In this document: positions 40,501 through 63,000 of the stretch, piece after piece | Layout: every line of letters starts with the position of its first letter | Numbering within the stretch: the first letter of the stretch is position 1 | Position numbers and translations under genes: made by a program | Virus record (IMG/VR): IMGVR_UViG_3300031851_000014 | Location: 1-64,000 of that record | Direction: 5' to 3' (one strand) | From: a virus | Length of the DNA stretch: 64,000 nucleotides | The notes under the pieces: generated by a model | The model's database searches: none | The model's input: the letters and a program-made list of their open reading frames with translations, nothing else | Told to the model about the DNA's origin: nothing

Positions 40501-42515
40501 ACGATAGGTTTGTAGATAACGCTAGACTTTTAGATGATCCTAACATTGAGAGGTTTCTTAATGTTGACCCGCTTGAAGTTTTTGATGCTGTCAAACGAGG
40601 TCAAGCAGGACAAGCCTTTGATAGGCAAATTGTTGGTAATGCTTTAGGTATGCAAGGATTTGGCGTAGGTGATTTAATTAGATTACTTCGATACGCTAAT
40701 GAAGACTCTACTTTTAAACCTGAACATGTTATTGTAAACTCTAATTTACAGGGTTATGAAAAGAGAACTTTAGGTAAAACAGAGCAACAAAAATATTCTA
40801 AAGTTTTAGAGTATTTAGAAGATGCCTACCATATGGCTATGGGTAATTTGTCTTACGATAAGACAGATAAAAGTTCTATTGGTTTTATTAGTATGCTTAC
40901 TACTATTGCTGACGCTGGTACAGCTTTAAGTGTTGGCCCTCGTTTAGGCATGGCGGCATTACTTGAAGAAACCCCTATGGCTATTATCGGTGAACTTAAA
41001 TCATCCTTAGATTCTATTAGACAAGAAGGGCGTGAATCTATTGGCTTCTTTAAAAACTTAGGAAACAGAGAAGCTCTTCAACAGTGGATCCAAGGAATGG
41101 GACATATTACCAGAGATTTACAACGAGAGTCTAGTACTCTTATGTTAAAGATGGGTATCGACCCTAAGCAAATTAGTCAAAACAGAGCAGACAAAGCTGT
41201 CCAACGAATGTATAAAGTTTCATCTACAGGATTAGATTATCAAACAGCCATTAACCGCGCCCGTGGTGTTAGGAAATGGATTAATGAATTAAACTCTATG
41301 TTTGTAAATGAGGCTAATGCAGATATTTCATTTACTCATTCGGATGGTCATACTGTTTCTGTTTCTTCTCGAAACCTTAAAAGTAACGCATCCTTTGATA
41401 CGGTTTACGAAGTTGTGCAAGGAATGGGAGATCTTACTCGTTATACATCTACTGAAATTAAAGATAATTTAAAACAACTTAAACTTTCTGCTGAAACATT
41501 AGATGCTGTTATTGACATGATGAGAAATGGTTTATTCTCAGAAGAGTTAGCTCCTATCTTTAAAAAACTTTGGTTAGAAAACTACAATACCATAATTAAA
41601 CAAGGAATCCCATTTGAAGAAATGATGAAAACAATTAACTTTGATTATAATTCTTCAGCTAAAGAAAGAGCGCAAACATCTCAGGTTATCATGGCTCTTA
41701 GAGAAATTGCCTTTAATGCGTCAACCAGATACGCTAAACAGCCTACTCTTTCAGAGAATGCTGCTTTAGGTTCTAGAAGACTTGGTGCTTTCTCTAGGTT
41801 AGTTACTCAATTAACAAACTATGCCTCATCTGTGTTTGGGTCATTGAGAAAAGCGCAAACTGTAAGCCCAGCGTTATTTGCCTCAGCTTTCTTAGGTCAC
41901 GCTATATCGGGATACATGTATTATAAGTTAGTTCAAATGCAAAACTCTAAGACTTTTGAAGAAATTCTAAAAGAATGGGAAAAAGACCCTATGTCAGAAA
42001 TTAGAGATGCCCTAATGTCAGTTCCTTTCTTTGGTATGAATCAAATGCCTATTGTGGCTCTTACACAGGTGTTGCGAGGAGAAAGACCTCAAAACACCCA
42101 GATATTTAACTTTGCTTCGTTGGCTATGATTAATAAGATTCTTCAGTTACCCGCTAAAACAATGAAAAGCGTTGGTGATATTCAAGAGGGTAATATCTCA
42201 CGCGGCGCAGCTAACATGTCATCTACTGTTCCCTTACCGTTTATGCCTATTGTGTCACTCGGGTTAAGGTCTTGGGATACTAAGATGCCTTTGTTTGGAT
42301 TTAAAGATAATTCTAAGAAAATACAAAGACCTAAAAATCCTCCAAAGATTACTAAGTCTACGCCTGCTACAACTTCTGCAACGGAACCAAATGTAGATGC
42401 AATGAGACAGCGTAAACCTGAGACGACACCACGTCAGGAATTAGACAGTCTTAATACGACTCCTGAGAGTCTAACAGAAGCTCTTAATCAAAGGTTTATA
42501 CCAAAGCCATATTAA
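28530..42515 (+). CDS. Giant internal virion protein D (gp16 position), 4661 aa
   Basis: One uninterrupted 14-kb frame in the gp16 position; T7 gp16 is 1318 aa. It is mainly helical. Landmarks: Gly-rich hydrophobic stretches at about residues 378-424 (LGLDIAATIGTGGLKAGGMI) and 564-600 (MLMGGVMGGLLGPAIGGTFD), which could enter membrane; a charged coiled coil at about 783-870; a degenerate metallopeptidase motif EELGH at 3347-3351 (an HExxH with the first His replaced by Glu); and a C-terminal hydrophobic segment, ALFASAFLGHAISGYMYYKL, at 4448-4467. I see no lytic transglycosylase signature and no polymerase motifs. By position it should be ejected into the host and complete the DNA-ejection channel; it may also carry host-takeover domains. 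It ends abutting promoter motif 1. Confidence 0.75.
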   Translation: MPINFSSENYSKNAVDFYNSVQQEKMNEIFKTPKLSDITEQYEQRVKNTSFALQYGMAAEAALDEEEAKTVSEEYDNIMYNSFAPFRLDPKEVNERIARDNRESLRMIKVANEAGIENLRFEGGEEFKKTIQYAMAFPLTAPNVMNNRLIGYVPDNLGGTFYDLSESWSEASYTNAINAHKVMSMFGQVPESVSRGASMTIADDQTKGSIKMLLDMIKKENATFDPSYDENFVLRQSEAMALEDSVSWNKNAGFFEGAGRFLVSSFDTLGGAFTNFGDDGPVLDFLGYKDKIWMGDKETEGIRDLLLNAIETSDNLDPKIKDWLSNNPDVLDLLKNSSNGAAFTAGLNEKRFQYKAAVLEQETQGNKTFGAYAKIFGHGFMLDPTLGLDIAATIGTGGLKAGGMITRGGLRATGRLLSLGTSKQLASRTGLLTRLNRQSIAALTRESKFFRLSNFLKKGTDQLSLLQKVMPTQILSELLVPLSRRLLTSGKDEGVDLLTYLKGNDYLPKSVTGKAMYRAIAGSVEGLVWGRIEYSYAAAYEDSLNVAMFGQEQADVLSYMRNQSGAMTQSMLMGGVMGGLLGPAIGGTFDAAGASVTGTANLINKWSEVSPDNWLNKTTAFAEKNFNERIAKTSWWNVTKSIINVATENNMTADARLSVNKAIPKIEFGQTDESASNSARTLEEKLYQLSEKSHNSGAVNFQKAVDEVVNSIPEGETVSAEAFTIRVENALVNQVQDRAIRLGLRYTLVTGTVKTLTDFESDAKRNELTNDGKPAEPVTKTEGNEFSVEAERLAEVKKTKETELAAEEEKIEKLREALAAKREANKNNPDEADTEGVAKLEEEIKEASTTIENMDKDIKEVGLQVAQAAANYAATNKESVITNQAVFNKLLKEKLLDDINKQEDMHPIAAMMLFGMDETLVRKMKNGATLEQKAVLDKLLALNPDDAPLDSNEIASLKDVIEDNFLEEIGKGDEVVPHTLFDQLIKEGISTESAFNEAYNFSFEELAADDARRGQAILVDEEGNSLLTKEQQTSLNEAIAKVAAIRDKINEGNVEDLNFNKAVLNELAEALGIEKPNKIKDKTKLAAKIKEAWDNATQEQRDAYDNIIIDRNFTDDIFKSKATQNIEAVIREAVEEQADDLVTREQQKARDESDEYQNTTDEIDEALAPFREQKRNAETAPNADRARSNEASTNLILLGLVEANKINDMRTQKFINLLSEGQFGAALEMLVVRESDDPQQIKNNKWAMAMEKGIGTSLSVKEMMARARDGKDPNAAQYLRSELPRAWRERGDGLKINTIEVDEQIKSARDYLAENGTDQQKKHFAALEKKQKSQREAIDRIIESRRQDIIDRKVRLAAERVIAESRPAIGFVKPILKALQSINGHIIRAKNSPKNVTGSIETEFSYDISINKEELIGVLKANNLLGLMLRIDTESGALNKKVDSYDSKIVMNALQDKLVSVAPALRDTFIPGLQRIYDNMYNNKIDGTGLYKGDGSIRNLLDSMEDVLDEEASFYTTQFNNNGGRYYDNNNAYTLDADSWDSDFTRAINRLDFGDYFNDTPSITPEQKAARVLNDLNDSLGNRKLTRPNELGSTRAALGPKRAARAVRSALLGEKATTSSVSETSLVVTGGRREAKRTLGANRATGIQKETDSQLINMFDEYVVQKRQGYFLDDDLTDEDLDVLENWLENLKVKDIPNRVRAENSLLPTPVIRSLTEKLPQNIKERVEQNKINMLRSDPAFMSTVHDAIFPMLSSEISTSGQHFAWNFSKQDKDGNTFYPFRGLGFGFPIADARPDTINAALAAATEITFNYENLISTAFETWKSGKWRSKLKPETRENVPEDMSFGEFFFGGEIEKLSVEEQKAISEELFPTIGEFDADASGNNVMVSIVNGVEGAGATRDFLSELVKEVDAGRLDEFLESNYKTSYERTKEIVQNDLNDPTTREAVKKAASRGEASPDLDEAIEISAKIFNYADADGNPLLDLKAIMKNPSMTQPYGAGVGSMAKAIYENFFVTYRDKLISDNEIPLTTSNFERMARTASQLLANGFHESSAKEGLSWVNTNLFGKGSNMNNEKLRTVLTKFRSVRKSLTGASTLRGSGDAIKDPTGLRAMVADNESKQQELNSIIDGNRPIELSEADSFNNLLRQMMGQAVVLTDNGFAKNNTESANGIRKLIMNMVRDAEGNTDLQDAIKNKNYPEARRLWKDITDQDEINNIKLSSLNSYIRQAHKFDLEKFKSLLTSLGLEEEFAMQIFDNLSPMGRKAFVQNFFRELAIGPDHGRIYTKTTEGPDLLIEKLVRPDETAAFSIAGMKPDNLSRDPEVFDAEIRRLTLLDLAKKASSFVEDEDMPVLSKGKFESSTHGGFLNEWKNHSELSRKLRKNAKDQIRRIDNLLFEDMDNGQKEKLDVLRKMLSKIVDSGTDARDGTIDDLMVGITGSEMQQQVNALPSALGYLPKTFLSDFNDAPATILRKAQLERTQNVKTMRSLEKQIKDKRVTVQQDPFTIEELAYVKTLDNIDDIKPIAFKSMLPTSVFDTVALNISDSPSLRTTRAVLQTELDNFVDNVKNLGGNKVLEEAASKGKYDVVLLHYFATLANKEAMKTRQDIALASSAFEKQKRDFVDSLEETDPDKIINAIKNNRSLQDMEKKLNLLIEASLLEEESTLRSLTQWGFDAKRNITDLYDLRGESVDSVFPGQTIEEAIQNTIVNNDVTAGNLLAWLANDAEFLGQVLLDDPNSRYVDSYGGDNPERALNALGVFSTGDSPSLYLSAYAQNYAKRYTVSAILGKSQDKITSAEIQAYRIWKDAKYKLDSETMDRIKTDFPELVEALEKPENLKNILTLEAEGLKQATKAFDNTALLSEITRNIPLTESVAADLLERYPNIETIIGKVSPDMTLERLLSSKSENLLGGKHKALVNQFGDVTAPHRIIGNAKIKLMAGEKLNTVNSIGSKDMIDAIRFTSTLSLESLPFGKSLGDNITGHDPFTKFGSSISKTRRQAAILSEAIKGLVKGKPEAEFVVDKRNSFISEGKAKQAEFVTYSNAQIEAALSSAEQTMAQGILRDLNLTPVELDKIFNTDDNVARNKNDVYRAARLVPFLSENSSEYNIFKKQQAIKDSLKGKRAVNDLDAFNDFKDNVLPILTEIKKAIQTKKQNAIKNDPDFKSNDINSVDLVDDWFTSTIRSADIADDNNTPVVNGNQVYDSQSVESAKVGAVAKAEQTSLLDRTDGSEAMKGVNTVDFAFSDKQFIDNGPEHLRFIEAINPLVTRGVLTNDDKLLLKIVFNDRSNNTMLKQLFDEDDSVTMVANDANVSLSDTSAATLRTRIEVANNLAKQFDKIGKLGAAGVVLEELGHAIGKRMSKDGMQSFIIRAKQLLKDEDGFNAFIALEKELFGAETRVDYSNRVEHIRKFIDEEDIKAVRSNETFGILFAITSILGKDTRALLNEDTDILAKLYSDSNHYISRLRSYYSVAESSPVSIDDLTHPMNIEANLHKVVYNNPDEISSEMIGGDPRPDFKPNHLYNRATEVGTLPEQREAYLDENIKAATIADGRFNPNLLDNNTQNKLRAVTKHLDSFVKDASKGTLIDSPMFTLMANASMGLMSRQTVEKLMLNLAQPFGARRFAFLANNKDGQSGISLLLLGMVDTKNLVSTSSFNTALPTMQGLQVHLDGVFEPLMKPLLDLKRINSTRGMTGVASYQAFTGLFWKMVMNRDGDSGAITGWAGKTKAKQIGIAELDKIYKKANEELPFDPETGKITDPELDHTLDILVETARAWADPKDGVYQQILTAQVDNGRFDSTFAAEAIMSGVVPIKFADELFTRGEMANNPDLRETFRKAFADHLYSTMTDRNNKFIHEDLFSLVFADRLEGDIDAPTRITGMDLASGVYQKYLDEASTPADAWANFTNDIKQGKLSKYDLLSGEELQYFYESINQENITVSEKQNKMMNNIENRLDSKTPRSGKKSSSSANKERLIEFVAEEYALTSGSSAYSFINDRFVDNARLLDDPNIERFLNVDPLEVFDAVKRGQAGQAFDRQIVGNALGMQGFGVGDLIRLLRYANEDSTFKPEHVIVNSNLQGYEKRTLGKTEQQKYSKVLEYLEDAYHMAMGNLSYDKTDKSSIGFISMLTTIADAGTALSVGPRLGMAALLEETPMAIIGELKSSLDSIRQEGRESIGFFKNLGNREALQQWIQGMGHITRDLQRESSTLMLKMGIDPKQISQNRADKAVQRMYKVSSTGLDYQTAINRARGVRKWINELNSMFVNEANADISFTHSDGHTVSVSSRNLKSNASFDTVYEVVQGMGDLTRYTSTEIKDNLKQLKLSAETLDAVIDMMRNGLFSEELAPIFKKLWLENYNTIIKQGIPFEEMMKTINFDYNSSAKERAQTSQVIMALREIAFNASTRYAKQPTLSENAALGSRRLGAFSRLVTQLTNYASSVFGSLRKAQTVSPALFASAFLGHAISGYMYYKLVQMQNSKTFEEILKEWEKDPMSEIRDALMSVPFFGMNQMPIVALTQVLRGERPQNTQIFNFASLAMINKILQLPAKTMKSVGDIQEGNISRGAANMSSTVPLPFMPIVSLGLRSWDTKMPLFGFKDNSKKIQRPKNPPKITKSTPATTSATEPNVDAMRQRKPETTPRQELDSLNTTPESLTEALNQRFIPKPY

Positions 42516-42533
42516 AAAACCCACAGTATAACA
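42514..42533 (+). promoter_or_regulatory. Putative phage RNA polymerase promoter, copy 1
   Basis: AAAAAACCCACAGTATAACA overlaps the TAA stop of the giant core gene. The same block occurs at 47785 and 56490 and, weaker, at 62978, always at a boundary between gene groups and in the gene direction. It resembles the CACTATA core of T7-type promoters in having CNC before TATAA. Assignment to the phage polymerase is inference; a -10 element for host polymerase is the alternative. Confidence 0.55.
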
Positions 42534-42542
42534 AAAGAGAGT

Positions 42543-42580
42543 GGGAGTCTATAGATTTCTTTCTATAGACTCCCTCTATT
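42543..42580 (+). terminator. Perfect 13-bp hairpin just downstream of promoter copy 1
   Basis: GGGAGTCTATAGA (42543-42555) and TCTATAGACTCCC (42562-42574) are exact inverted repeats with loop TTTCTT, followed by TCTATTATACC. It could terminate the late transcript of the core genes. If promoter copy 1 is real, it would also be the 5' hairpin of the new transcript, starting about 10 nt downstream of TATAAC. Confidence 0.65.
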
Positions 42581-42621
42581 ATACCTATATATTATATAAC
42601 TAAGTACCCCTATTGATTACC

Positions 42622-42657
42622 GGGGGGATTACTCAAAGTTCACTGCGGCTATGCCGC
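42622..42657 (+). repeat. G6-element copy 1 with small hairpin
   Basis: A 24-base element starting GGGGGGAT and ending TTCACTG (42622-42645) matches a second copy at 43228-43251 at about 19 of 24 positions. Each is followed directly by a short hairpin, here GCGGC-TAT-GCCGC (42645-42657), shortly before a gene with a good ribosome binding site. It looks like a repeated 5'-UTR or operator element. Confidence 0.5.
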
Positions 42658-42672
42658 TCTTTGGAGTCTGAC

Positions 42673-43209
42673 ATGTTAAATTATTTGATTCTGGCTACAC
42701 TCCCGTTGTTACCTTTAGATGATACTAATAATGATAATTCAGTAATGGACTATCAGATCTACACAGATGGACCACGTACGGTGTACGAAGGCGCAGCCAA
42801 ACTCAAGTGGGACGAGAACGTAACTGCTTGTGTTACCTACACTTTCGATCTTGTACCGGGACGCTTGGCGGGATCTCCGGTCTCTTCGCAACCGGGTGAA
42901 CCCATGCTTCCCTATGATGAAGTTATAATCTCAGATAACGAGATCTACGTTAGCTGGGAGCGGAACCGCACTGACTTATGGCCTACCCCTACGGAGTGCC
43001 ACCGTAGGTTTCACTTCTTTGTTATTAAAACACAATTTGATGCTGATGACCTCAGCGCACTCTTAAGTGACTGGGGACCACCTTATGTTATTGACCTTCC
43101 GTGGCCTCAGAAGGACTACACCTATATGTCCCCTTGGGATCTTAACTTAGACACTGTGGTAGACGGTAAGGACTTGGCAATCCTTTTGGCGGGTTGGAAA
43201 ATCGACTAG
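42673..43209 (+). CDS. Exported protein with dockerin-like repeats (178 aa)
   Basis: ATG 42673 is chosen because TTGGAG lies six bases upstream; the frame is open 60 bases further without a better start. Residues 1-15 (MLNYLILATLPLLPL) look like a short signal peptide or membrane anchor. The body (about 25-118) is an unknown beta-rich domain. The C-terminus carries two dockerin-like, Ca-binding-type segments: FDADDLSALLSDWG (122-135) and WDLNLDTVVDGKDLAILLAG (155-174). The D-L-N-x-D-x-V-V-D-G-x-D-L-A-x-L-L-x-x-W pattern is a hallmark of planctomycete extracellular proteins. Role unknown; the protein may have been acquired from the host and act at the host surface. Confidence 0.65.
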   Translation: MLNYLILATLPLLPLDDTNNDNSVMDYQIYTDGPRTVYEGAAKLKWDENVTACVTYTFDLVPGRLAGSPVSSQPGEPMLPYDEVIISDNEIYVSWERNRTDLWPTPTECHRRFHFFVIKTQFDADDLSALLSDWGPPYVIDLPWPQKDYTYMSPWDLNLDTVVDGKDLAILLAGWKID

Positions 43210-43227
43210 GGGGTCAGGAATTTACAT

Positions 43228-43266
43228 GGGGGGATAATCAAAATTTCACTGGGAAAGTCCCCCAGT
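43228..43266 (+). repeat. G6-element copy 2 with hairpin
   Basis: The second copy of the 24-base element (GGGGGGAT to TTTCACTG, 43228-43251) is followed by ACTGGG-N7-CCCAGT (43248-43266), a six-base-pair hairpin. It lies in the 88-bp gap between the dockerin-like gene and the next gene, in the same relative place as copy 1. Confidence 0.5.
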
Positions 43267-43297
43267 ACCCCCCCTTAGCTCTTGAAAGGAGCCAACC

Positions 43298-43855
43298 ATG
43301 ACTAACGTCACCACTACCGCTATCACCTCCCTCAAAAAAATGTACGAAGTTACCCGACGCTTTATTAGCGACTGCGAGTTTGTTTACCGAACAGAAGGTA
43401 CGGAAGGAGCTAAGATGATGGCTGATGATTATAGGAAGGATATCGAGAAGATTGAAGGAGAGATTCTTGATATCATGCTGTCAACAGATGCCTACATGAC
43501 TCCTAAGAATTGGAAAGATGCCCGCGAAGCTAACGACTCGTTGACATGGTTTGACGAGGAACTTACTCAGAAGTGGACTGAGCCTTCGGATACTATTGGT
43601 TCAGGTGTGCGACAAATGGGTTCAGTTGAAGTGGTTGTAGGTGGAGTGACGTACACGTTCTCTACTGTCCTGATGTTCGATCTCGGTGAAGATTCGGCAT
43701 TTTATTATCACACAGTTGTTTGGGCGAACGGTGAGTCCGTTGACGAAAGTTCGCGAGAAAGTAGTAACTATCAAGAGGCTGCTAACTATGGTGAAATTCT
43801 GATGGAAATCGTCTGCGAAGAAGACGATGATTCTGACGATCCCTCACAGGGCTAA
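43298..43855 (+). CDS. Hypothetical acidic protein (185 aa)
   Basis: No recognised family. The N-terminal 90 residues are helical and charged (SLKKMYEVTRRFISDCEFVY; DDYRKDIEKIEGEILDIMLS). The middle is beta-like (VEVVVGGVTYTFSTVLMFDL), and the C-terminus is strongly acidic (CEEDDDSDDPSQG). Acidic tails of this type can mimic DNA, but that is speculation. GAAAGGAG lies eight bases upstream. It is followed by an intrinsic terminator, so it closes a short transcript with the dockerin-like gene. Confidence 0.6.
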   Translation: MTNVTTTAITSLKKMYEVTRRFISDCEFVYRTEGTEGAKMMADDYRKDIEKIEGEILDIMLSTDAYMTPKNWKDAREANDSLTWFDEELTQKWTEPSDTIGSGVRQMGSVEVVVGGVTYTFSTVLMFDLGEDSAFYYHTVVWANGESVDESSRESSNYQEAANYGEILMEIVCEEDDDSDDPSQG

Positions 43856-43869
43856 TCGCCCGGCCCTGC

Positions 43870-43908
43870 ACAAGCCCACCCTCTACCGAGGGTGTCGCTT
43901 GTTTTCTT
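43870..43908 (+). terminator. Rho-independent terminator after the 185-aa gene
   Basis: A two-part stem, ACAAGC/GCTTGT outside and ACCCTC/GAGGGT inside with a TACC loop, is followed by TTTCTT. It is a convincing intrinsic terminator ending the first accessory transcript. Its T-rich end runs into the first TTCCACTATCA repeat (43907). Confidence 0.75.
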
Positions 43909-43917
43909 CCACTATCA
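43907..43917 (+). repeat. TTCCACTATCA motif copy 1
   Basis: The exact 11-mer TTCCACTATCA also occurs at 44391 and 45050, and with one mismatch at 44695. Copies 1 and 2 lie 22-25 bases before a start codon and just before a GAAAGG ribosome binding site. It may be an operator, promoter or RNA signal specific to this block. Confidence 0.5.
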
Positions 43918-43938
43918 CGTGTCTCGAAAGGACATACA

Positions 43939-44022
43939 ATGATTAATATTATTGCTCTGATTGTGCTTATTGTTGTTTGTGCTGTTATGACTTTTCTTCC
44001 TCTTATTGATACTGACGACTGA
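43939..44022 (+). CDS. 27-aa single-TM peptide
   Basis: GAAAGGACATACA precedes ATG 43939. The peptide is almost entirely hydrophobic (MINIIALIVLIVVCAVMTFL) with an acidic end, IDTDD. It would span the membrane once. The good ribosome binding site and position after a terminator and the TTCCACTATCA motif support expression. Function unknown; small membrane peptides in early phage regions often alter host membrane proteins. Confidence 0.5.
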   Translation: MINIIALIVLIVVCAVMTFLPLIDTDD

Positions 44023-44033
44023 AGGAGGTGTAC

Positions 44034-44249
44034 ATGATGTATGCCCTCAAGCAGTGTGTGTTGGCCTTGGTGGCCTTCCTTTCTTTTTCGGTGGGTTTCG
44101 GTATGATTCTCTTTCTGGCGTCGTTCAGAGAGACTGCCGAGTATGGTGTCGTGAGCATGCTTATGCTCGGGTACGCCCTCATCTTCGTGATGAGTGGCCT
44201 GCTGCTCGGAAGAGCCGTCATCCTTAGATTGGAGGCTGACAAGAGCTGA
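44034..44249 (+). CDS. Small membrane protein with two TM segments (71 aa)
   Basis: GAAGGAGGT at 44021-44029 is an excellent ribosome binding site; ATG 44034 or ATG 44037 is the start. Two hydrophobic helices (CVLALVAFLSFSVGFGMILF and MLMLGYALIFVMSGLLLGRA) flank a short charged loop. The C-terminus is basic. It is unrelated to known holins as far as I can see and lies in the early or accessory block, so a host membrane-modifying role is possible. Confidence 0.55.
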   Translation: MMYALKQCVLALVAFLSFSVGFGMILFLASFRETAEYGVVSMLMLGYALIFVMSGLLLGRAVILRLEADKS

Positions 44250-44259
44250 TAGCGTAACT

Positions 44260-44290
44260 CTGCTCCCCTAACGGGGGGCGGGGTTATTTC
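44260..44290 (+). terminator. GC hairpin after the two-TM gene
   Basis: CTGCTCCCC (44260-44268) pairs with GGGGGGCGG (44273-44281) through nine pairs including two G-U, around TAAC, followed by GGTTATTTC. The TTATTTC tail then leads into GAAAGGAG, the next ribosome binding site. This terminator-like hairpin plus Shine-Dalgarno layout recurs in this block. Confidence 0.55.
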
Positions 44291-44306
44291 AGAAAGGAGA
44301 TCAAGG

Positions 44307-44384: not shown

Positions 44385-44390
44385 TGTGCC

Positions 44391-44401: not shown

Positions 44402-44425
44402 TCCCCAATGGGAAAGGTTTTTACT

Positions 44426-45523: not shown

Positions 45524-45548
45524 CCCTGTTTCTTAGAAAGGAAACACA

Positions 45549-47760: not shown

Positions 47761-47784
47761 ATCCCCGATAGGAAAGTAGCGTTT

Positions 47785-47804
47785 AAAAAACCCACGTTAT
47801 AATA
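47785..47804 (+). promoter_or_regulatory. Putative phage promoter, copy 2
   Basis: AAAAAACCCACGTTATAATA matches copy 1 at 16 of 20 positions, including the ACCCA block and TATAA with the same spacing. It lies in the 65-bp gap before the gene at 47826, 25 bases after the previous stop, and would start transcription of the thyX and DUF932 group. Confidence 0.6.
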
Positions 47805-47825
47805 ACTACTTTCCAAGGAGATAAT

Positions 47826-50851: not shown

Positions 50852-50924
50852 GCCCTCGTAGCTCAGTTGGTAGAGCATTCGGCTTTTAACCGATCGGTCG
50901 CAGGTTCAAGTCCTGCCGAGGGCA
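50852..50924 (+). tRNA. tRNA-Lys (anticodon UUU)
   Basis: The cloverleaf is clear: acceptor GCCCTCG pairs with CGAGGGC, D-arm GCTC-AGTTGGTA-GAGC, anticodon loop CTTTTAA with anticodon TTT, T-arm GCAGG-TTCAAGT-CCTGC, discriminator A. The anticodon stem has a U-U mismatch at its top pair. CCA is not encoded. It reads AAA and AAG, both abundant in the late genes. Confidence 0.93.
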
Positions 50925-50941: not shown

Positions 50942-51475
50942 ATGAACGATTATAACTTAGAAGATGAATTAATTAAAGTACATGGTAAGTTAGCACAAAG
51001 AAACAATGCTAGTTCTAATACTATTATTAACTCAGCACAGTTAGGTAAAGATTTTTTTACTGCTGTTGCTTCAGCTCTACTTACACTAGGAGAAACACAT
51101 GGACCTCTTACACAAACATCAAATTTGTTTTCACATCCTAATCCAGTTGACTATGTTTTAAGTCTACTCGATAATAACTTTCTTATACCGGGTTGGGGTA
51201 GTAGCTTTGTTAAAGGTGAGGAAGACCCTGCGTTTGATACCATTAAAAATATTTTACAGGAGAAACATGAAGATGTATACAAAGTAATTGGAGATGTAAC
51301 AGCGGCACTTCATCTAGAAGGAAAGAAATTATTTCCTAATGCTGCTTGTTATACTATAGCTAGTATGTTTGCGTTAGATCTTGACCCAAGAATATCCTTT
51401 AAACTATTTATTACTAGTAGGATTGATTGGTGGCATCATGTGTACATGTGTTACTATCGTCCCGGCCCTATTTAA
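50942..51475 (+). CDS. Citrate synthase / citryl-CoA lyase-like protein, probably non-catalytic (177 aa)
   Basis: The order of motifs follows the C-terminal catalytic half of citrate synthase-fold proteins: a helix then LLTLGETHGPLTQTSNLF (the HGG active-site segment), IPGWGSSFVKGEEDPAFDTI (the P-G-(F/Y)-G-H-x-x-x-K-x-x-D-P motif), KKLFPNAACYTIASMFALDL (the P-N-V-D segment) and ISFKLFITSRIDWWHHVYMC (the final helix). But the second catalytic His is Ser (GWGS) and the catalytic Asp of PNVD is Ala (PNAA). The protein is also half the usual length. It is likely a repurposed or inactive fold. The similarity is by eye and needs a profile search. Confidence 0.45.
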   Translation: MNDYNLEDELIKVHGKLAQRNNASSNTIINSAQLGKDFFTAVASALLTLGETHGPLTQTSNLFSHPNPVDYVLSLLDNNFLIPGWGSSFVKGEEDPAFDTIKNILQEKHEDVYKVIGDVTAALHLEGKKLFPNAACYTIASMFALDLDPRISFKLFITSRIDWWHHVYMCYYRPGPI

Positions 51476-51825: not shown

Positions 51826-51910
51826 GGCTCTGTGGCGGAATTGGCAGACGCAACGGACTTAAAATCCGTCGAGGGTAAACCTCATGGGGGTTCGAGTCCC
51901 CCCGGAGCTA
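51826..51910 (+). tRNA. tRNA-Leu (anticodon UAA)
   Basis: A class II tRNA of 85 nt: acceptor GGCTCTG with CGGAGCT (G-U at the first pair), anticodon arm ACGGA-CTTAAAA-TCCGT with anticodon TAA, long variable arm (GAGG-GTAAA-CCTC), T-arm GGGGG-TTCGAGT-CCCCC and discriminator A. CCA is not encoded. It reads TTA and TTG; TTA is very common in the virion genes. Confidence 0.92.
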
Positions 51911-52066: not shown

Positions 52067-52222
52067 ATGTACGGTAAAGGAGATAAGTATAGAGATGTCG
52101 ATAAGAAAAAATACGATAAAGAGTACGATAAAATTTTCGGTAAGAAAAAGTTAAACAATATAGAAAGTAATTCTAAATGCAAACATGGAAAGACCACACG
52201 AAAGAAGAACAAACGAGGCTGA
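52067..52222 (+). CDS. Hypothetical Lys-rich protein (51 aa)
   Basis: GAAAGGAGGT just upstream makes ATG 52067 the best start; GTG 52034 in frame is an alternative. The peptide is rich in Lys, Asp and Tyr (KYRDVDKKKYDKEYDKIFGK) and ends CKHGKTTRKKNKRG. It overlaps the RNA polymerase start by 46 bp, so it may couple polymerase translation. The open frame upstream suggests the gene was once longer. Confidence 0.5.
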   Translation: MYGKGDKYRDVDKKKYDKEYDKIFGKKKLNNIESNSKCKHGKTTRKKNKRG

Positions 52223-54723
52223 TTAATCTTCAGCTATCGAATGAAGATCGTGCTGCTAACCAATCAATTAGTAAGTACCTTCATAACGTTAACCATAGCC
52301 CTTCGTCTTCTCCTCGTGAGAAGGAATTTGTATTTGATTACAGCGAGTACTTAGCTAACTACTTAGAGTGGACAGAAGAACAATACAAAGACATTAAGAA
52401 GAAACCTTATTGGCTTACCATTGCGCAACTGCTTGGACCTGAGCGTTGTGCTTGTATTGTTGTAAAGGTATTGTTAGATAGTTGCTTGTCATCTAGGTTG
52501 ATTCAAACTGCTGATGGTATTAAGTACGACAGTAATAACTTAGGTGACTTCAAGGGACAGACTAAACAAAGTGTACTCAGTCGCATCGCCCGTGAGTTGT
52601 GGCTTGCCATTGGTATTAGAACAGCTAAAGAACATTACTCTGAAGATTTCTTTAGACAATCACATTACTTTAAGAACTGGAATAAGAAACGTATGAAAGC
52701 GTTTGCTAAGAAATGCCAGACGTTACCTGAATGGGATAACAAAAAAAGAAATGTAGTTGCACTGTCGTTCTATGCCCTTATGGTAGGTGACCAAGATAGT
52801 GTGATGCCTTTTGTTGATGATACTATTACTATTGTTAAGAACAATCAGATTAAGAAGTATACTATTGTAACTCTTCGTGATGAGTTTACTAAGAACTTTG
52901 AAGAGTTCCATGCGTTCTATCAATACTACAAGTGGTTGTATTACCCTATGGTATCACCTCCTATCCCACACCAATGGCCTTGTAGTACACCAGATCAATA
53001 CGGTGGCTCATTAAACATCGAGTATAGAAAGTCTTCTATCCATAACTCTCGTGCTGGTAGTTACCATAAGAATAACTCACAGCATTCCAAATCTTCAGCA
53101 GAAACGTTGAACAACTTGCAACAAACAGAGTGGCGAGTAAACAAACGTGTGCTAAAAGTACTAGAAAACCTGTATAAATCTAACAACCTAGTATGTAACT
53201 TACCACCCTTCGAGTTGGATGAATTTGTTTTCTCTGATCCTTATCCTGAAGAAGGAACTAAAGAGGAAGTAGGCAAGTGGAAACAAAAGAGAACAGAGAG
53301 CTGGGGTGAATGGGAGAAATCAAAACAAAAGAGAATGCAAATGGAAATGCGTTTGCTTATTGCTAATGACTTAGGTGATTTAAACTTCTATCATGCTTAC
53401 TCATGTGACTTTCGGGGTCGTGCTTACACACAGTCAACCATCTTATCACCTCAGAGTGGTGACTTTGATGCGGCACTGATTGAGTTCTCTAACCCAACAA
53501 GAGTAACCGATAAAGGTTTGTATTGGATTAAAGTTAATGTAGCTAACCTATGGGATCAAGATAAGATACCATTCGATGATCGCGTTAAGTGGGTAGATGA
53601 TAACATAGACATGTTAAGTCAAGTAGCACAGTTTCCAGAAGAAACAGTAAGGTTGTGGGAAGATGACAAGAAGAAAAAAAATGTATCTTTTCGTAGACTT
53701 GCTGCTACTTTTGATTTGTTCTACGCTATTAATCTTAAACTATCTTATATACCAGTTCATTTGGACGGCACTTGTAACGGCATTCAGCACTGGGTTGCTG
53801 CTATGCTTGATGAAGCCTTGGCACCTTACGTAAATGTATGTGATACACCCAAGCCCGGTGACATGTACAACTTTATTGCTGAGATGTCAACAAACAAAAT
53901 GCTTGCTGAACGAACAGAAAATGATTACTTTGAGTTGTTCTTAACGCACTGGCAAGAAACTACTGACGACGAAAAGATGCCTCGTAACCTACCTAAGCGC
54001 ACAGTTATGTGCGACCCTTACGGAGTTACATACTACTCAGCACGTCAGTACATACGATCAGAGGGGCACCTTGACTGGTGTCGTGAGATGCTTGAGCCAA
54101 GAGGGTTGAGCTGGCAAGGAGCTATTGTTGAGTGTACCTCAGTCATCTGGGAATCATTACAAGAAGCTTTGATTAAACCTAACCTAGCCAAGGAGTATAT
54201 TAAAAGTTGTGTTGAGTTATGTTATAATGATGACGAAAGAAAAAAGAAACCACTTGAATGGGTGACACCTAATGGTTTTAAAGTTAGACAGTACTACACT
54301 GAACACATTGAGTATATTACTGATATAGCTTTATTACTTAAGAACGATGTACGCATTCGACACACAGCAGAGATGTGGCAGTTCACTGATGAAATGAATC
54401 CACGAAAGATGATGACTGCAATCCCACCTAACTGGGTGCATTCATTAGACGCAGCCCACATGAGCATGGTAGTCAATTACCTGTCTCGTGCAGGATGTAA
54501 AAACTTTTCTATGATTCACGATAGCTTTGGTGTTACTTGTGACTTTGCTGAACAACTGTGTGAAGTAGTAAGGATAATGTTTTATGAGATACATAAAGAG
54601 AACCAACTCGTTAAATTCAAACAAAGTATTGAAAACTTTGTGGAACACCCAGTCCCCGATCCTCCCGAAAGAGGCAGACTTGACGCAGAAGAAATCCTTA
54701 GATCCACCTATCTCTTCAACTGA
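52177..54723 (+). CDS. T7-type single-subunit DNA-dependent RNA polymerase
   Basis: 848 aa (T7: 883). The catalytic set is complete: DFRGRAYTQS at 411-420 (T/DxxGR motif), motif A in HLDGTCNGIQHWVA with Asp530 (T7 Asp537), motif B with Arg603, Lys607 and Tyr615 (T7 Arg627, Lys631, Tyr639, same spacing) and motif C in FSMIHDSFGVTCDF with Asp782 (T7 Asp812). It should transcribe the middle and late phage genes from its own promoters. The start at ATG 52177 has only a weak ribosome binding site and lies inside the previous gene; the N-terminus (EEQTRLINLQLSNEDRA) is plausible. The putative promoter motif described at 42514, 47785, 56490 and 62978 is its likely target. Confidence 0.96.
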   Translation: MQTWKDHTKEEQTRLINLQLSNEDRAANQSISKYLHNVNHSPSSSPREKEFVFDYSEYLANYLEWTEEQYKDIKKKPYWLTIAQLLGPERCACIVVKVLLDSCLSSRLIQTADGIKYDSNNLGDFKGQTKQSVLSRIARELWLAIGIRTAKEHYSEDFFRQSHYFKNWNKKRMKAFAKKCQTLPEWDNKKRNVVALSFYALMVGDQDSVMPFVDDTITIVKNNQIKKYTIVTLRDEFTKNFEEFHAFYQYYKWLYYPMVSPPIPHQWPCSTPDQYGGSLNIEYRKSSIHNSRAGSYHKNNSQHSKSSAETLNNLQQTEWRVNKRVLKVLENLYKSNNLVCNLPPFELDEFVFSDPYPEEGTKEEVGKWKQKRTESWGEWEKSKQKRMQMEMRLLIANDLGDLNFYHAYSCDFRGRAYTQSTILSPQSGDFDAALIEFSNPTRVTDKGLYWIKVNVANLWDQDKIPFDDRVKWVDDNIDMLSQVAQFPEETVRLWEDDKKKKNVSFRRLAATFDLFYAINLKLSYIPVHLDGTCNGIQHWVAAMLDEALAPYVNVCDTPKPGDMYNFIAEMSTNKMLAERTENDYFELFLTHWQETTDDEKMPRNLPKRTVMCDPYGVTYYSARQYIRSEGHLDWCREMLEPRGLSWQGAIVECTSVIWESLQEALIKPNLAKEYIKSCVELCYNDDERKKKPLEWVTPNGFKVRQYYTEHIEYITDIALLLKNDVRIRHTAEMWQFTDEMNPRKMMTAIPPNWVHSLDAAHMSMVVNYLSRAGCKNFSMIHDSFGVTCDFAEQLCEVVRIMFYEIHKENQLVKFKQSIENFVEHPVPDPPERGRLDAEEILRSTYLFN

Positions 54724-55033: not shown

Positions 55034-55280
55034 TGTTATGATACTTGGTGAGAAAGATATGGAAGATGTTTTGGATATGATTGAAGACAATCTTAAGGAC
55101 AACGAGAAGTCTACATTTAATATCTACCTCCCATCTATTAAATGGGTAAACATTATTCTTGATAATGTAAACACCATTGGAGAAAAAGTACTCGACCCTG
55201 AAAACGTAAACAGTGATCTTTTAACTATTGAATTTATTATCGAAGGAGTTGAATATGACGACGAGCCAGACTACGGGTGA
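55011..55280 (+). CDS. Hypothetical acidic protein (89 aa)
   Basis: ATGGAG precedes ATG 55011 by seven bases. The protein is acidic and helical (DMEDVLDMIEDNLKDNEKST; PENVNSDLLTIEFIIEGVEY). It overlaps both neighbours: 23 bp with the gene before and 26 bp with the sigma-like gene, suggesting coupled translation. Not recognised. Confidence 0.5.
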   Translation: MMTIPPHDVMILGEKDMEDVLDMIEDNLKDNEKSTFNIYLPSIKWVNIILDNVNTIGEKVLDPENVNSDLLTIEFIIEGVEYDDEPDYG

Positions 55281-55836
55281 TCTTGATCCTTTCAACGAAG
55301 AGGACTTCATTACTTGTATTACTATTGTTGTACGTACTATCAGGCGTAAAGGCCGGTGGTCTAACTGGGAAGAAGAAGAGTGCATTAGTGAAGGGTACAT
55401 CTATGCTCTTCGCATTCGTGAGCTTTGGAATCCTGAAGCAGGTCCATTTATGAAGTACTTGTTTTCTACTTTACCTTTTAGAATATCTGATGCTATGCGT
55501 ACTGGTATGGGTCATAAAAGAAACCAAAGAAAAAACCGTGCTACTAATGCTCGTTTTATTAGTAAAGAGTTTCAAGTAACGAGTAACGAAGAGTACGATG
55601 CAATTGTAAATCTTCCGGCAAAAGAAGAAAAGTTACATGACCACGACTGGGAAGATAACTTTGATTGGTTTGCTTTGACGCCTAAAGAAATTGAATGTGT
55701 TAATATGAGAGCAAGAGGAATACCACAAAAAGAAATTGGTTACTCCCTTGGTGTATGCGAGTCTAGAGTATGTCAGATTCTTAAACAAGTAAAAAACAAA
55801 TGGTCACACCATGACCCGGAGAACAACAATGAGTAA
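55255..55836 (+). CDS. Sigma-70-family-like factor (193 aa)
   Basis: AAGGAG six bases upstream supports ATG 55255. The N-terminal half has sigma region 2-like helices (EEECISEGYIYALRIRELWN, then FMKYLFSTLPFRISDAMRTG). The C-terminal half is a clear helix-turn-helix of sigma region 4 type: LTPKEIECVNMRARGIPQKE followed by IGYSLGVCESRVCQILKQVK. The size fits small ECF-like sigma factors. It could redirect host RNA polymerase to phage promoters or act as a DNA-binding regulator. It lies just downstream of the phage's own polymerase gene, and its end overlaps the phosphoesterase start by 8 bp. Confidence 0.65.
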   Translation: MTTSQTTGDLDPFNEEDFITCITIVVRTIRRKGRWSNWEEEECISEGYIYALRIRELWNPEAGPFMKYLFSTLPFRISDAMRTGMGHKRNQRKNRATNARFISKEFQVTSNEEYDAIVNLPAKEEKLHDHDWEDNFDWFALTPKEIECVNMRARGIPQKEIGYSLGVCESRVCQILKQVKNKWSHHDPENNNE

Positions 55837-56491
55837 AGTATTAGTAATTGGGGATCTCCATGCCCCTGCAACACACCCGGATTATTTTGAGTTTGTTAGA
55901 TCTATCCGGCGTAAGCACCGTACCGACCAGACTGTATTCATTGGTGATGTCATTGATCACCATGCTATCTCGTTTCACAAGGCTCACCCTGAGTCTACTG
56001 ACGCGTTGACTGAATACAATAAAGCTTTTGAAACAGTTAAGAAATGGTACAAGGCGTACCCCAATGCGTACGTTACCATTGGCAATCATGACGAACGCGT
56101 CCATCGGCTTGCTGCGGACGCTGGTGTACCCTCAGTGTACCTTAAGGACTACAGTGAACTGTACAAAACTAAGAATTGGGAGTGGGTGAACAATGTTGAA
56201 ATTGACGATGTTTATTATTACCACGGAACTGGTTCTTCTTCTGCTTATCCTGCATTTAATGCGGCAAAACTCAGAAACCAATCGGTTGTCATGGGACACT
56301 ACCATACTAAGGCTGCAATTAATTGGATGTGCGGCCCTAAGTCACATAGGATTTTTGGTATGTCCGTTGGATGTGGAATAGACGCGAAACATCTTGCCAT
56401 GAAGTATGGTGAAAATTATCTTGTAAAACCTATGCTTTCATGTGCAGTTGTACATGATGGTTACCCGATACTAGAAGTAATGCGGAACTAA
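55829..56491 (+). CDS. Calcineurin-like metallophosphoesterase (220 aa)
   Basis: All motifs of the metallophosphoesterase fold are present: GDLHAP at 8-13, GDVIDHH near 42-48, GNHDERVHRL near 91, and GHYHTKAAI near 158 (the G-H-x-H metal site). Such enzymes hydrolyse phosphoester bonds in nucleotides, nucleic acids or phosphoproteins with two metal ions; phage members are often near replication genes. ATG 55829, with CCGGAG upstream, is better supported than ATG 55811. The stop codon abuts promoter copy 3. Confidence 0.82.
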   Translation: MSKVLVIGDLHAPATHPDYFEFVRSIRRKHRTDQTVFIGDVIDHHAISFHKAHPESTDALTEYNKAFETVKKWYKAYPNAYVTIGNHDERVHRLAADAGVPSVYLKDYSELYKTKNWEWVNNVEIDDVYYYHGTGSSSAYPAFNAAKLRNQSVVMGHYHTKAAINWMCGPKSHRIFGMSVGCGIDAKHLAMKYGENYLVKPMLSCAVVHDGYPILEVMRN

Positions 56492-56509
56492 AAACCCATG
56501 CTATAACAA
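56490..56509 (+). promoter_or_regulatory. Putative phage promoter, copy 3
   Basis: AAAAACCCATGCTATAACAA overlaps the TAA stop of the phosphoesterase gene and shares the block AAAAACCCA-N3-TATAAC with copy 1. It stands 31 bases before the first gene of the replication block (SSB, RusA, primase-helicase, polymerase), as expected of a promoter for that block. Confidence 0.6.
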
Positions 56510-56539
56510 ACTACGGCAACGTAGGGAAAGGAGAACATA

Positions 56540-57281: not shown

Positions 57282-57291
57282 AGGAGGCGAC

Positions 57292-57672: not shown

Positions 57673-57685
57673 AGAAGAAAGTTAT

Positions 57686-59437: not shown

Positions 59438-59438
59438 C

Positions 59439-61151
59439 TTGGAACTCATTTGGGACATCGAAGCAAACGGTCTCGCGTACACAACAATCAACAAAAAAGG
59501 ACAAGCAATCCCCGCGGCTACCAGAGTTTGGTGCATCGTGGCAAGAGAGGCAGGCACAGAGAGAGTCTACACGTACGGCCCCAACGACATCGAGCGGGGT
59601 ATTGAACTGCTTAATGGCGCTTCTCTGTGGGTTGGTCATAATCTTATCGGGTACGACATCCCCGTTCTTTCTAGATTTGGCCTTACTCGTAGCTGCCCTG
59701 TTCTTGATACTCTCGTTGTTTCTCGACTGATGTATCCTGACAAGAAAGATGTGAAGTTCCCTCTTCATAATAAGAAGGGGGTTCATTCACATTCTTTGGA
59801 GGCATGGGGTCGCAAGCTTGGTGAAGACAAGCAGGACTACGAAGGTGGCTGGGAAGCGTACTCCGAAGAGATGCTTGACTACTGTGTGCAAGACGTAGAA
59901 GTTAATAATAAAATTTATGATTACCAAAAGCCTTGGGTTGAAAAGAACAGGAAGGTTGTTCAGTTTGAACATCTTGTCGGACATGTGTGTGCTGACATGA
60001 CTAAGCAAGGCTTTGGCTTTGACACCAAGAACGGTACTGAACTACAGTATGAGCTACTTGGAGAGAAAGCAGAAATCGAGGATAACCTTCAAAAAATTTT
60101 TCCCACTATTACAGAGGAACGTTGGTCAGAAAAGACCGGAAAACAATTGAAGTCTAAGGTTACAGTATTTAATCCTGCCTCTACTAAACAAATTGCTCAT
60201 AGATTTAATGAGAAGTATAGTTGGAACGCACCCGTCAGTGATAAGGGTAACCCTAACTGCGATACTTCAGTTCTTAAAGGACTTAAGTTTCCAGAAGCTA
60301 AAGAGATTCTCCGTTACAGAGATATCCAAAAGCTTCTTGGCATGGTAGAGGATTGGATTATTAGAGCTGAGTCAGCAAGTGACAACAGGATTCATGGTAA
60401 CTTCAACCATCAAGGTGCTGCTACTGGTCGTGCTACTCACTCGCAACCTAATGTCGCTCAGGTAGATAAGAACCCAAGAGCTAGAGGATTGTGGAAACCA
60501 CACGATGGTGACGTACAAGTCGGCTCTGACCTTAGCGGCCTTGAGTTGCGTATGCTTGCACACCAGATGGCTGAGTACGATGGTGGTGACTACGCTAAAC
60601 AAATCCTTGAGGGTGACATTCATGACACTAACATGAAGGCTGCTGGCTTGACTAACAGAGATCAAGCTAAAACATTTATCTACGGCTTCCTATATGGTGC
60701 CGGATCAGAAAAGATCGGTAAGATTGTCGGCGGTAACGCCCGTGATGGTCAACAACTTAAAGATCAATTCCTAAGGCAATTGCCTGCACTCAAGAAAGTA
60801 ATTCAGAATGTCCAGTTTCAATCGGCGAAGCATGGTAGTGTTGAATTGTTGGATGGTCGTCGTGTTCCTGTACGGAGTGATCACGCAGCTCTTAACACTT
60901 TACTACAGGGAAATGGCGCAGTTATATCTAAGCTCTGGCTCGTACTGGCCCACCGTAAAATGGTAGATAAAGGTGTAAAGTTTATGGGCTGGATACACGA
61001 TGAGATACAAGTGTCTTGTAAAAAAGATATTGCTAAAAGAGTTGGCATTACATTGGTTGACTGTGCAAAAGAAGCAGGAGAAATGCTTAAGGTTAAAATG
61101 CCAGTGGATGCTGAGTATGTGATCGGAGAGTCATGGGCAGATACCCATTAA
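59439..61151 (+). CDS. DNA polymerase, family A (T7 gp5-like), TTG start
   Basis: 570 aa (T7: 704). TTG 59439 is preferred because CAGGAGG lies nine bases upstream and it places MELIWDIEANGL, the exonuclease I motif, at the N-terminus as in T7. Exonuclease II (HNLIGYDIPVL) and III (YCVQDVEVN) are present, so proofreading should work. Polymerase motif A is SDLSGLELRMLAHQMAEYDG, motif B RDQAKTFIYGFLYGAG with Tyr415 equivalent to T7 Tyr526, and motif C WIHDEIQVSC. It is shorter than T7, perhaps lacking part of the thioredoxin-binding insertion, so another processivity factor may be used. Confidence 0.95.
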   Translation: MELIWDIEANGLAYTTINKKGQAIPAATRVWCIVAREAGTERVYTYGPNDIERGIELLNGASLWVGHNLIGYDIPVLSRFGLTRSCPVLDTLVVSRLMYPDKKDVKFPLHNKKGVHSHSLEAWGRKLGEDKQDYEGGWEAYSEEMLDYCVQDVEVNNKIYDYQKPWVEKNRKVVQFEHLVGHVCADMTKQGFGFDTKNGTELQYELLGEKAEIEDNLQKIFPTITEERWSEKTGKQLKSKVTVFNPASTKQIAHRFNEKYSWNAPVSDKGNPNCDTSVLKGLKFPEAKEILRYRDIQKLLGMVEDWIIRAESASDNRIHGNFNHQGAATGRATHSQPNVAQVDKNPRARGLWKPHDGDVQVGSDLSGLELRMLAHQMAEYDGGDYAKQILEGDIHDTNMKAAGLTNRDQAKTFIYGFLYGAGSEKIGKIVGGNARDGQQLKDQFLRQLPALKKVIQNVQFQSAKHGSVELLDGRRVPVRSDHAALNTLLQGNGAVISKLWLVLAHRKMVDKGVKFMGWIHDEIQVSCKKDIAKRVGITLVDCAKEAGEMLKVKMPVDAEYVIGESWADTH

Positions 61152-61624
61152 AAATTTATTTATACAAACCGGACCACAGCAGATGGCAACATAGGTTGCT
61201 AACAATAGTTTCAAGAGTACAGTGGGGACACATAGCATTAGCTGTTGGTCCCGCTCTTTATTACATGGATCATAAAAAAGGTATGAGGATATGCAGCGAG
61301 AAAGCTGTACATAAACTTATGCACTGGGATGAATGTTTATTCTTAGAAGAACTAATCATTAACGATCCTAAAGTCTTAGACAATTTAAACAACACAGAAT
61401 ATAAACAGTCGTCTACATTGTACACGACCTTATGGTATTACGTAGGTAAGTTACTAAAGCTACCTATACCTAGCTTATGTTCTACAGAAACGTGTGTTAT
61501 ATTACAAAAACTTAAGTTTGATATTCCTAAATATTTAACAGCAGAAGAAATTAAGGAGTGGTTATATGAAAATGATTGCATTCGCGGGTCGCGCAGGCGT
61601 TGGCAAAACGACGATTGTTCGTGA
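61133..61624 (+). CDS. Permuted NlpC/P60-like papain-fold protein (163 aa)
   Basis: The core shows WGHIALAVGPALYYMD (His motif first) and later SLCSTETCVILQKLKFDIPK (Cys on a helix start). His before Cys is the order of circularly permuted papain-fold families (YiiX/DUF830 or LRAT-like NlpC/P60). Such enzymes cleave or form amide bonds on peptidoglycan, lipids or proteins. The gene starts inside the end of the polymerase gene (19 bp) with GGAGAG upstream. A lysis role is possible, since no other endolysin is visible in the window, but the replication-block position also fits a host-takeover role. Confidence 0.5.
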   Translation: MGRYPLKIYLYKPDHSRWQHRLLTIVSRVQWGHIALAVGPALYYMDHKKGMRICSEKAVHKLMHWDECLFLEELIINDPKVLDNLNNTEYKQSSTLYTTLWYYVGKLLKLPIPSLCSTETCVILQKLKFDIPKYLTAEEIKEWLYENDCIRGSRRRWQNDDCS

Positions 61625-62309
61625 ACTAATGAGGTTGTTGTACGAAGCTAAGTACTCACCGATCTATATTCCTTTTGCTAAAGAATTAAAAGAAGAAGCT
61701 AAGGCATTAGGTTACGACAAAGAAACTAATCCCAAGCAGTACCGTAAGCATTGCCAAGAGTTAGGCGCAGCTAAAAGAAAAGAGAACCCCGACTACTGGC
61801 TTGAAAGGTGGGAAGAACATGTTGAGAAAGCCTTGCTTGAAGAAGACACCAGTGACTCATCTTACGAAAGAGTTATCCTTGTCGATGATTGCAGATATCT
61901 TAATGAAACAGAAAGAATTAAATCAAGAGGCGGAAAAGTTATCTTTGTTTCTGGAGGAGATAGAACTCTTGTTGATGAAACAGGGGAGTGGAGAACCCAC
62001 GAGTCAGAAGCCCTAGCTAACCTGACAGATAGAACTCTACAATATAAACACGACATGATCTCCCCGTTCTGCGAGTACTATTGGAACACCGAAAGTCTTG
62101 AAGAATTAGAAGAAGATGTTAGTCTAATTTTTGAGGAATGGCTAGAGGAATTCCCTTGTACATGCGAACTATGTGTAGCGAGGCGACAAAATCGTAGGGT
62201 AGATACAGATAAAGTTATGAATGAGATTAAAGACATATTGTTATCAGAAGATATTGACGTTAATGAGATTTTTAAAGATGATTCAACAACCGAAAGTGGC
62301 AGCGATTGA
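61566..62309 (+). CDS. P-loop deoxynucleoside monophosphate kinase-like protein (247 aa)
   Basis: The N-terminus MKMIAFAGRAGVGKTTIVRE carries a Walker A loop. Lid-like charged helices and VILVDDCRYLNETERIKSRG follow, as in phage dNMP kinases (T4 gp1-type). It would phosphorylate dNMPs from host DNA breakdown for reuse. The last 55 residues are acidic with CTCELC, a possible zinc site, and are unusual for the family. TTAAGGAG precedes ATG 61566; it overlaps the papain-like gene by 59 bp and the exonuclease gene by 32 bp. Confidence 0.65.
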   Translation: MKMIAFAGRAGVGKTTIVRELMRLLYEAKYSPIYIPFAKELKEEAKALGYDKETNPKQYRKHCQELGAAKRKENPDYWLERWEEHVEKALLEEDTSDSSYERVILVDDCRYLNETERIKSRGGKVIFVSGGDRTLVDETGEWRTHESEALANLTDRTLQYKHDMISPFCEYYWNTESLEELEEDVSLIFEEWLEEFPCTCELCVARRQNRRVDTDKVMNEIKDILLSEDIDVNEIFKDDSTTESGSD

Positions 62310-62979
62310 CGGAGATATTATTGCTTATCGTTTAGCTTGCAAGGTTGACATATACGGTGATCAGTATCTCATTCAGAACATTCAAGAGTATGTAGCTGAG
62401 TGGACACCGGGTGATGTTAACCATGTTATTTTAACGTTTAGTTGTAACCGAGCAGATAATTTTAGAAAGATATACTGGCCTTTGTATAAGGAACACCGGA
62501 ATGTCGTAGCTAAACCTGACTCGATGTCGTATGTTATTGATGCTATGAGTGAGATCTACGAGAGCTTTAAGAAAGATATTATAGAAGCAGATGACATTAT
62601 GGGCAAGCTTGCATCAGCAGGTAAGGCTATAGCTGTTACTATTGATAAGGATCTTAGAGGCGTACCCGGATGGCACTGGAACCCTGATAAGGAATGGGAA
62701 CCTAGATACGTGACCTACGATCAAGCAGACAGATTCTTCTGTAAGCAGTGGATCATGGGTGACAGCACAGATAAAGTTCCCGGTATCCCTAAGGTGGGTC
62801 CGGTCAAAGCGGAGCGTCTACTCGATACTGTAGAGCCTCACAACAGAGAGCAATTAATTCTAGCAGAGTATGAAAAAAAGGGGCTATCAGAAGAATATGC
62901 CCTTGGTCAAGCTACTGCAATTCGTATTTTAAGGATTGGCGAAAAGCCCGTTCTTTGGCAACCAAGCTGGTATGTCTAA
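62278..62979 (+). CDS. 5'-3' exonuclease (T7 gp6-like, FEN/PIN fold)
   Basis: 233 aa (T7 gp6: 300). Metal-binding acidic residues are at AAIDGDIIAYRL (residues about 9-20), EADDIMGKLASAG and VTIDKDLRGVPGW, and the helix-3-turn-helix DNA-binding motif is GDSTDKVPGIPKVGPVKAER. It degrades RNA primers and host DNA and helps form concatemers. The start at ATG 62278 overlaps the kinase-like gene by 32 bp. The stop abuts promoter copy 4. Confidence 0.88.
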   Translation: MIQQPKVAAIDGDIIAYRLACKVDIYGDQYLIQNIQEYVAEWTPGDVNHVILTFSCNRADNFRKIYWPLYKEHRNVVAKPDSMSYVIDAMSEIYESFKKDIIEADDIMGKLASAGKAIAVTIDKDLRGVPGWHWNPDKEWEPRYVTYDQADRFFCKQWIMGDSTDKVPGIPKVGPVKAERLLDTVEPHNREQLILAEYEKKGLSEEYALGQATAIRILRIGEKPVLWQPSWYV

Positions 62980-63000
62980 AAAACCCAGCTATTAGCTACA
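62978..63000 (+). promoter_or_regulatory. Putative phage promoter, copy 4 (weaker)
   Basis: AAAAAACCCAGCTATTAGCT overlaps the exonuclease stop codon. The AAAAAACCCA block is intact, but TATTAG replaces TATAAC and the spacing differs by one base. It lies just before the RNR ribosome binding site AAAGGAG (63001). Confidence 0.45.

Follow-up and report, generated by a model that had tools for sequence, protein, structure and literature searches.

A short motif, repeated in gene direction at the starts of gene blocks in this phage, very probably represents a set of promoters for the phage's own single-subunit RNA polymerase (RNAP), comprising four intergenic sites and perhaps also a fifth at 23344. 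Recognition of the set by the phage RNAP is strongly supported by comparative sequence evidence: strand specificity, position at block starts, a footprint-like pattern of conservation, a specificity loop that is the same among close relatives, and a different motif accompanied by a different loop in a sister group of phages, termed clade 3. The motif is a new promoter set within a known class, the promoters of single-subunit phage RNAPs, and supplies predicted promoters for a deeply diverged RNAP group. A brief literature search on the specificity loop and on phages with both a sigma factor and an RNAP did not find it reported among the papers listed.

A repeated motif at gene-block starts

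The window, which is the whole stretch of 64,000 nucleotides analysed here, comes from a virus record of 68,145 bases, in which almost all genes lie on the + strand. The motif is a contiguous sequence of approximately 17-20 bases. Exact copies of AAAAACCCA-N3-TATAA(C/T) start at 42515, 47786 and 56490, and the sites are as follows.

42515-42532, + strand: site A, AAAAACCCACAGTATAAC, start of the accessory-gene block
47786-47803, + strand: site B, AAAAACCCACGTTATAAT, start of the thyX/DUF932/RNAP block
56490-56507, + strand: site C, AAAAACCCATGCTATAAC, start of the replication block
62978-62996, + strand: site D, AAAAAACCCAGCTATTAGC, start of the RNR block
23344-23361, + strand: possible fifth site, AAAACCCCAGTGTATAAC, within the ORF at 23119-23610, directly after the terminase gene

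The first-pass annotation, made from the letters alone, had proposed such a motif, and its observation is confirmed as a whole with one-base corrections: the start at 56490 was right, while those given as 42514 and 47785 were each one base low. The weaker fourth copy that it placed at 62978 is present, but with three bases between ACCC and TAT instead of the four of the exact copies; its set of four is real, although the copy inside a gene at 23344 was missed. At sites A, C and D the motif overlaps the upstream gene's stop codon, which for site A belongs to a 4661-aa ORF, and site B starts 26 bases past the stop; three of the four copies therefore lie at an upstream stop codon, as had been noted. 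The block after A consists of accessory genes and that after B of thyX, DUF932 and the RNAP gene; C is followed by RusA, primase/helicase and DNA polymerase, and D by RNR, with Pfam matches to the RNR barrel and the class II insertion domain, in a block that continues towards the head genes. Each copy opens a functional block with the content described earlier.

Occurrence on the other strand had been named in advance as evidence that would count against promoters. In the whole 68,145-base record, four matches to AAAACCCANNNTATAA were found with at most one mismatch, namely sites A, B and C and the copy at 23344, all of them on the coding strand; the minus strand contained none, and a reversed control pattern gave none in the same record at the same threshold. 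Under a second-order Markov model, the three exact copies on the + strand compare with 0.002 expected, a figure that overstates the case since the pattern was taken post hoc from the same sites. When gapped words in intergenic DNA were counted without guidance, ACCCAnnnTATAA came first after the words of ribosome-binding sites and start codons.

Conservation of the sites in related phages

Searches with the RNAP and the primase yielded three groups of phages (clades 1 to 3) with similar gene order. Clade 1, which contains the window and its relatives, has RNAPs that are 67-93% identical and is split into lineage I, in which the motif carries TATAA (TATAG in one case), and lineage II, in which it carries TATTG or TATTA; the RNAPs of the two lineages are about 70% identical. 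A comparison of the window with G004 or G007 shows 98% identity in the core of the four sites, whereas the flanks are only 42-47% identical upstream and 47-50% downstream. All four intergenic sites lie at the same gene boundaries in the relatives: site A in G004, G007, G019, G020 and G021; site B in G002, G004, G007 and G020; site C in G001-G007; and site D in G001, G002, G004, G007, G021 and G022. Furthermore, the base before the putative start differs between the lineages at A, B and C in concert, the pattern expected from one shared trans-acting reader. Such a concerted change across dispersed sites would be a small natural example of the co-evolution of promoters and polymerase.

The sites can also be recovered across lineages by matrix scans, which had been suggested as a check. 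A matrix built from lineage II sites A-C only gave C, B, A and D as the best four in the window genome; a lineage I matrix assigned the first five ranks in both G004 and G007 to the counterparts of A, B, C, D and the 23344 site, and the highest scores on the minus strand of these two genomes were 3.0 and 0.4. The sites thus head the rankings, with few if any hits on the minus strand. Individual matrix scores are not extreme: among 60 shuffled genomes, one gave a single score of 19.5, above some true sites, and some coding matches in real sequence reach a similar score. These coding matches, the A runs that overlap stop codons at three sites, and the choice of the pattern after the sequence had been read would all agree with A-rich stop-codon junctions resembling one another by accident. 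Such an accident is nonetheless extremely improbable, as it would have to produce a core conserved while its flanks diverged, a shared change before the start at three dispersed sites, and the same ranking with matrices from the other lineage.

At the 23344 site, five of six motif codons are identical between the lineages, compared with 45-54% elsewhere at matching residues, and the sixth varies only in a free N3 position, which suggests a constraint on the sequence beyond that of the protein. This stretch, however, is also conserved at the protein level, and it retains TATAAC in lineage II, unlike the changed sites A-C; for both reasons it is left as a possible site.

The phage polymerase, its specificity loop and a sigma-like protein

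Two products encoded between sites B and C have been weighed as readers of the motif.

52177-54723, + strand: T7-type single-subunit RNA polymerase, 848 aa (PHROG 414, E=2e-148; PF00940; T7 RNAP match in PDB)
55228-55836, + strand: sigma-factor-like protein, 202 aa (PHROG 351, E=4e-9; Sigma70_r4 below cut-off)

The 848-aa RNAP is the proposed reader. The earlier statement that the phage encodes a T7-type polymerase agrees with its PHROG and Pfam matches and with the conservation of all the T7 catalytic residues D537, K631, Y639 and D812. The enzyme is nevertheless distant, being about a quarter identical to T7-like enzymes over the aligned part; the best match in the phage collection searched was 26% identical, no close named relative of the RNAP group was found in that collection, and no additional RNAP relatives came up when the clade 1 alignment or the clade 3 RNAP served as query. 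The core of the specificity loop does not change throughout clade 1. A contact code for the window's own enzyme is suggestive only: the loop is longer than that of T7, two alignments give different registers, and the loop region of the predicted structure has a pLDDT below 50 and is not usable for placing the loop.

Clade 3, consisting of G009 and fragments with an RNAP about 34% identical, carries a motif of its own. This motif, TAACGCCTGAGTCTAAGAGA, is 20 bases long; of its four copies, one differs at two positions. The first precedes the RNAP gene, the second lies at the exonuclease/RNR boundary, where the window has site D, the third precedes the terminase gene, and the fourth, at the end of the giant gene, occupies the boundary of site A. 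When IMG/VR was scanned for exact matches, the motif turned up in 18 stretches, and every contig examined has clade 3 genes. The two motifs are alike in architecture, with two of the four clade 3 copies at boundaries shared with the window, but they differ in sequence and are paired with different specificity loops. In T7 RNAP, N748 contacts -10/-11, R756 contacts -9 and Q758 contacts -8 (PMC5937735). T3 has D748, R756 and Q758 together with C-10, C-9 and T-8. The clade 3 RNAP aligns D, R and Q at T7 positions 748, 756 and 758, as T3 does, and its motif would present C-10, C-9 and T-8 if TCTA is placed at -4 to -1, so that the motif appears to fit the T7/T3 contact code. With a second natural pair of RNAP and promoter, found in sister phages and different from that of the window, the pairing becomes directly testable and the specificity-loop code of T7 can be tested far outside the T7 family; the two may also serve as a source of orthogonal RNAP/promoter pairs.

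Clade 2 phages have RNAPs about 36-38% identical and a third loop type. No convincing promoter set emerged in them from comparisons of repeated words, of self-similarity and of the pre-RNAP region, which instead contains a conserved hairpin with a T run behind it. The clade 1 matrix found nothing over shuffle level in the clade 2 and clade 3 genomes. The motif therefore tracks the RNAP loop, being constant in clade 1 with a constant loop and different in clade 3 with a different one, and since clade 2 yielded no motif, the rule of a new loop with a new motif rests on two groups.

The sigma-like protein was absent from the first-pass annotation. It was found in every clade 1 genome checked, and TATAAC or TATAAT looks like a -10 element, so that host RNA polymerase with this protein could use the sites, reading TATAAC as the -10 and the preceding ACCCA as an extended element. 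This is unlikely: the protein is only 41-57% identical within lineage I and is undetectable by BLAST in lineage II, whereas the motif core stays constant; an analogous set of motifs exists in clade 3, whose genome gave no PF04545 or PHROG 351 hit at E up to 0.1; and in a scan confined to the sigma-70 class, no match places a -10 on A, B or C. Filing the motif as a phage sigma promoter is therefore disfavoured. The phage resembles phages of the phiEco32 and 7-11 type, which have their own sigma factor (PMC8948821), in encoding a sigma-like protein, but unlike them it also has a single-subunit RNAP, which the motif tracks; this comparison is one of gene content. Dual use of the sites, with TATAAC serving early as a -10-like element for host RNAP and the sigma-like protein and the phage RNAP taking over later, is likewise improbable, but if true, it would mean that one promoter is handed over between two transcription machines.

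Proposed promoter architecture and neighbouring elements

With the phage RNAP as the reader, we infer its binding, melting, exact start base and timing as follows. The RNAP would be produced early from other promoters and would then bind the A run at about -16 to -12 (T7 numbering) together with CCCA at -11 to -8, the latter being read in the major groove by the specificity loop. N3 would occupy -7 to -5, TATA (TATT in lineage II) at -4 to -1 would melt, and RNA would begin at the following purine, A or G. The +1 would accordingly fall at 42531, 47802 and 56506 for sites A, B and C, and near 62995 for site D, which has ATTA at -4 to -1. Each site would start one gene block, with D also serving the head genes downstream. 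As to the early promoters, none was identified, sigma-70-like matches in 42.4-57 kb numbering 29 against 28.8 in shuffles, and in clade 1 no site was found ahead of the capsid gene or the RNAP gene, which, like the deviant spacing and the ATTA of site D, counts against this reading.

In overall layout the motif resembles the promoters of T7, T3 and other single-subunit phage RNAPs. The closest sequence likeness of the aligned motif is to the T3 promoter (NC_003298: CATTAACCCTCACTAACGGGAGA), as both have AACCC at -13 to -9 as well as TA at -4/-3, a register match that assumes TATA at -4 to -1 in the window motif. T3 promoters are likewise multi-copy, in gene direction and at gene boundaries, but the window motif has A instead of T at -8, a free N3 where T3 has CAC at -7 to -5, and a start at A or G without the GGG of T3. 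With T7 promoters (phi1.1A: AATACGACTCACTATAGAGG) it shares a length of about 17 bases upstream of the start, an AT-rich upstream part, a recognition core, and TATA at -4 to -1; the core itself is CCCA, compared with GACT in T7 at -11 to -8. A core CACTATAG is reported to be common to T7, T3 and SP6 (PMC13029058). It is not present at -7 to +1 of the window motif, where N3 at -7 to -5 reads CAG, CGT or TGC and only TAT(A/T) is retained from this region, and for the lack of this core the motif is not filed under the T7/T3/SP6 type. The first-pass remark that the motif differs from T7, SP6 and marine podovirus promoters needs refinement: it is not entirely dissimilar to known promoters, as AACCC matches T3 in register.

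Several hairpins lie in the neighbourhood of the motif and elsewhere.

42543-42574, + strand: 13-bp hairpin, 12 bases past the putative start at site A
56511-56524, + strand: hairpin CTACG-GCAA-CGTAG, just past the putative start at site C
2128-2158, + strand: terminator-like hairpin and T run, 3' of the capsid gene

In lineage II, both arms of the hairpin at C are replaced (GGCAC...GTGCC), and site A is followed by a different, weaker hairpin. The hairpins past A and C may function in the protection or processing of 5' ends. Since they come after these two sites, and since inverted repeats flank B in several genomes, the motif could be imagined as a conserved element other than a promoter, either the binding site of another phage protein or a signal for mRNA 5' processing near hairpins. 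This is very unlikely, because no hairpins follow B and D and the hairpins vary freely while the motif does not; moreover, a promoter function agrees with the position ahead of gene blocks, with the register shared with T3 and with the parallel set in clade 3.

Two further candidates were rejected. The region upstream of the capsid gene (AACCCGAAAGGATAATT) is strongly conserved, but it does not match the spacing of the motif. An N4-type virion RNAP within the 4661-aa protein was also considered; this protein matched no PHROG family at E up to 0.001 and no RNAP family, its one Pfam match being a weak one to GST_C_3 below cut-off (E=0.026). At the terminator-like hairpin 3' of the capsid gene, stem and loop are identical in G004 and G007.

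Inverted repeats, pre-capsid DNA and a hairpin

Site B, the candidate phage-RNAP promoter before the thyX/DUF932/RNAP block, has inverted repeats on both sides in the window (47770-47820, GGAAAGTAG...CTACTTTCC) and is bordered by TATGTAGC...GCTACATA in lineage II of clade 1, while around site B of G020 such repeats are not present. Strong conservation between the lineages was also found in the intergenic DNA upstream of the capsid gene (window 511-656; AACCCGAAAGGATAATT and more), which was considered as a copy of the repeated motif and rejected for lack of fit, and which may contain another regulatory element. In clade 2, a conserved hairpin followed by TTTTT, looking like an intrinsic terminator, lies directly upstream of the RNAP gene:

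L034 3830-3975 and equivalents, GAATACTAC...GTAGTATTC, then TTTTT

A second, short RNAP-like gene

Genomes of clades 2 and 3 carry a short second RNAP-like gene, whose protein seems to lack the specificity loop:

Short second RNAP-like genes (coding-strand coordinates)
G009 2933-4387, clade 3, 485 aa
G008 36305-37531, clade 2
G010 22859-24085, clade 2
G012 802-2028, clade 2

By tblastn, no counterpart other than the main RNAP was found in clade 1, which has the sigma-like gene in its place.

Other genes of the window

The structural genes end in a giant ORF, for which neither Pfam nor PHROG gave a significant family and whose G009 version has 5014 aa. Upstream of the RNAP gene lie two tRNA genes and a citrate-synthase-like ORF, the ORF alone being kept at 35-37% in G004 and G007 of lineage II.

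28530-42515, 4661-aa ORF
50852-50924, tRNA-Lys (TTT)
50942-51475, 177-aa ORF, Pfam citrate synthase C-terminal domain (E=7.6e-9)
51826-51910, tRNA-Leu (TAA)
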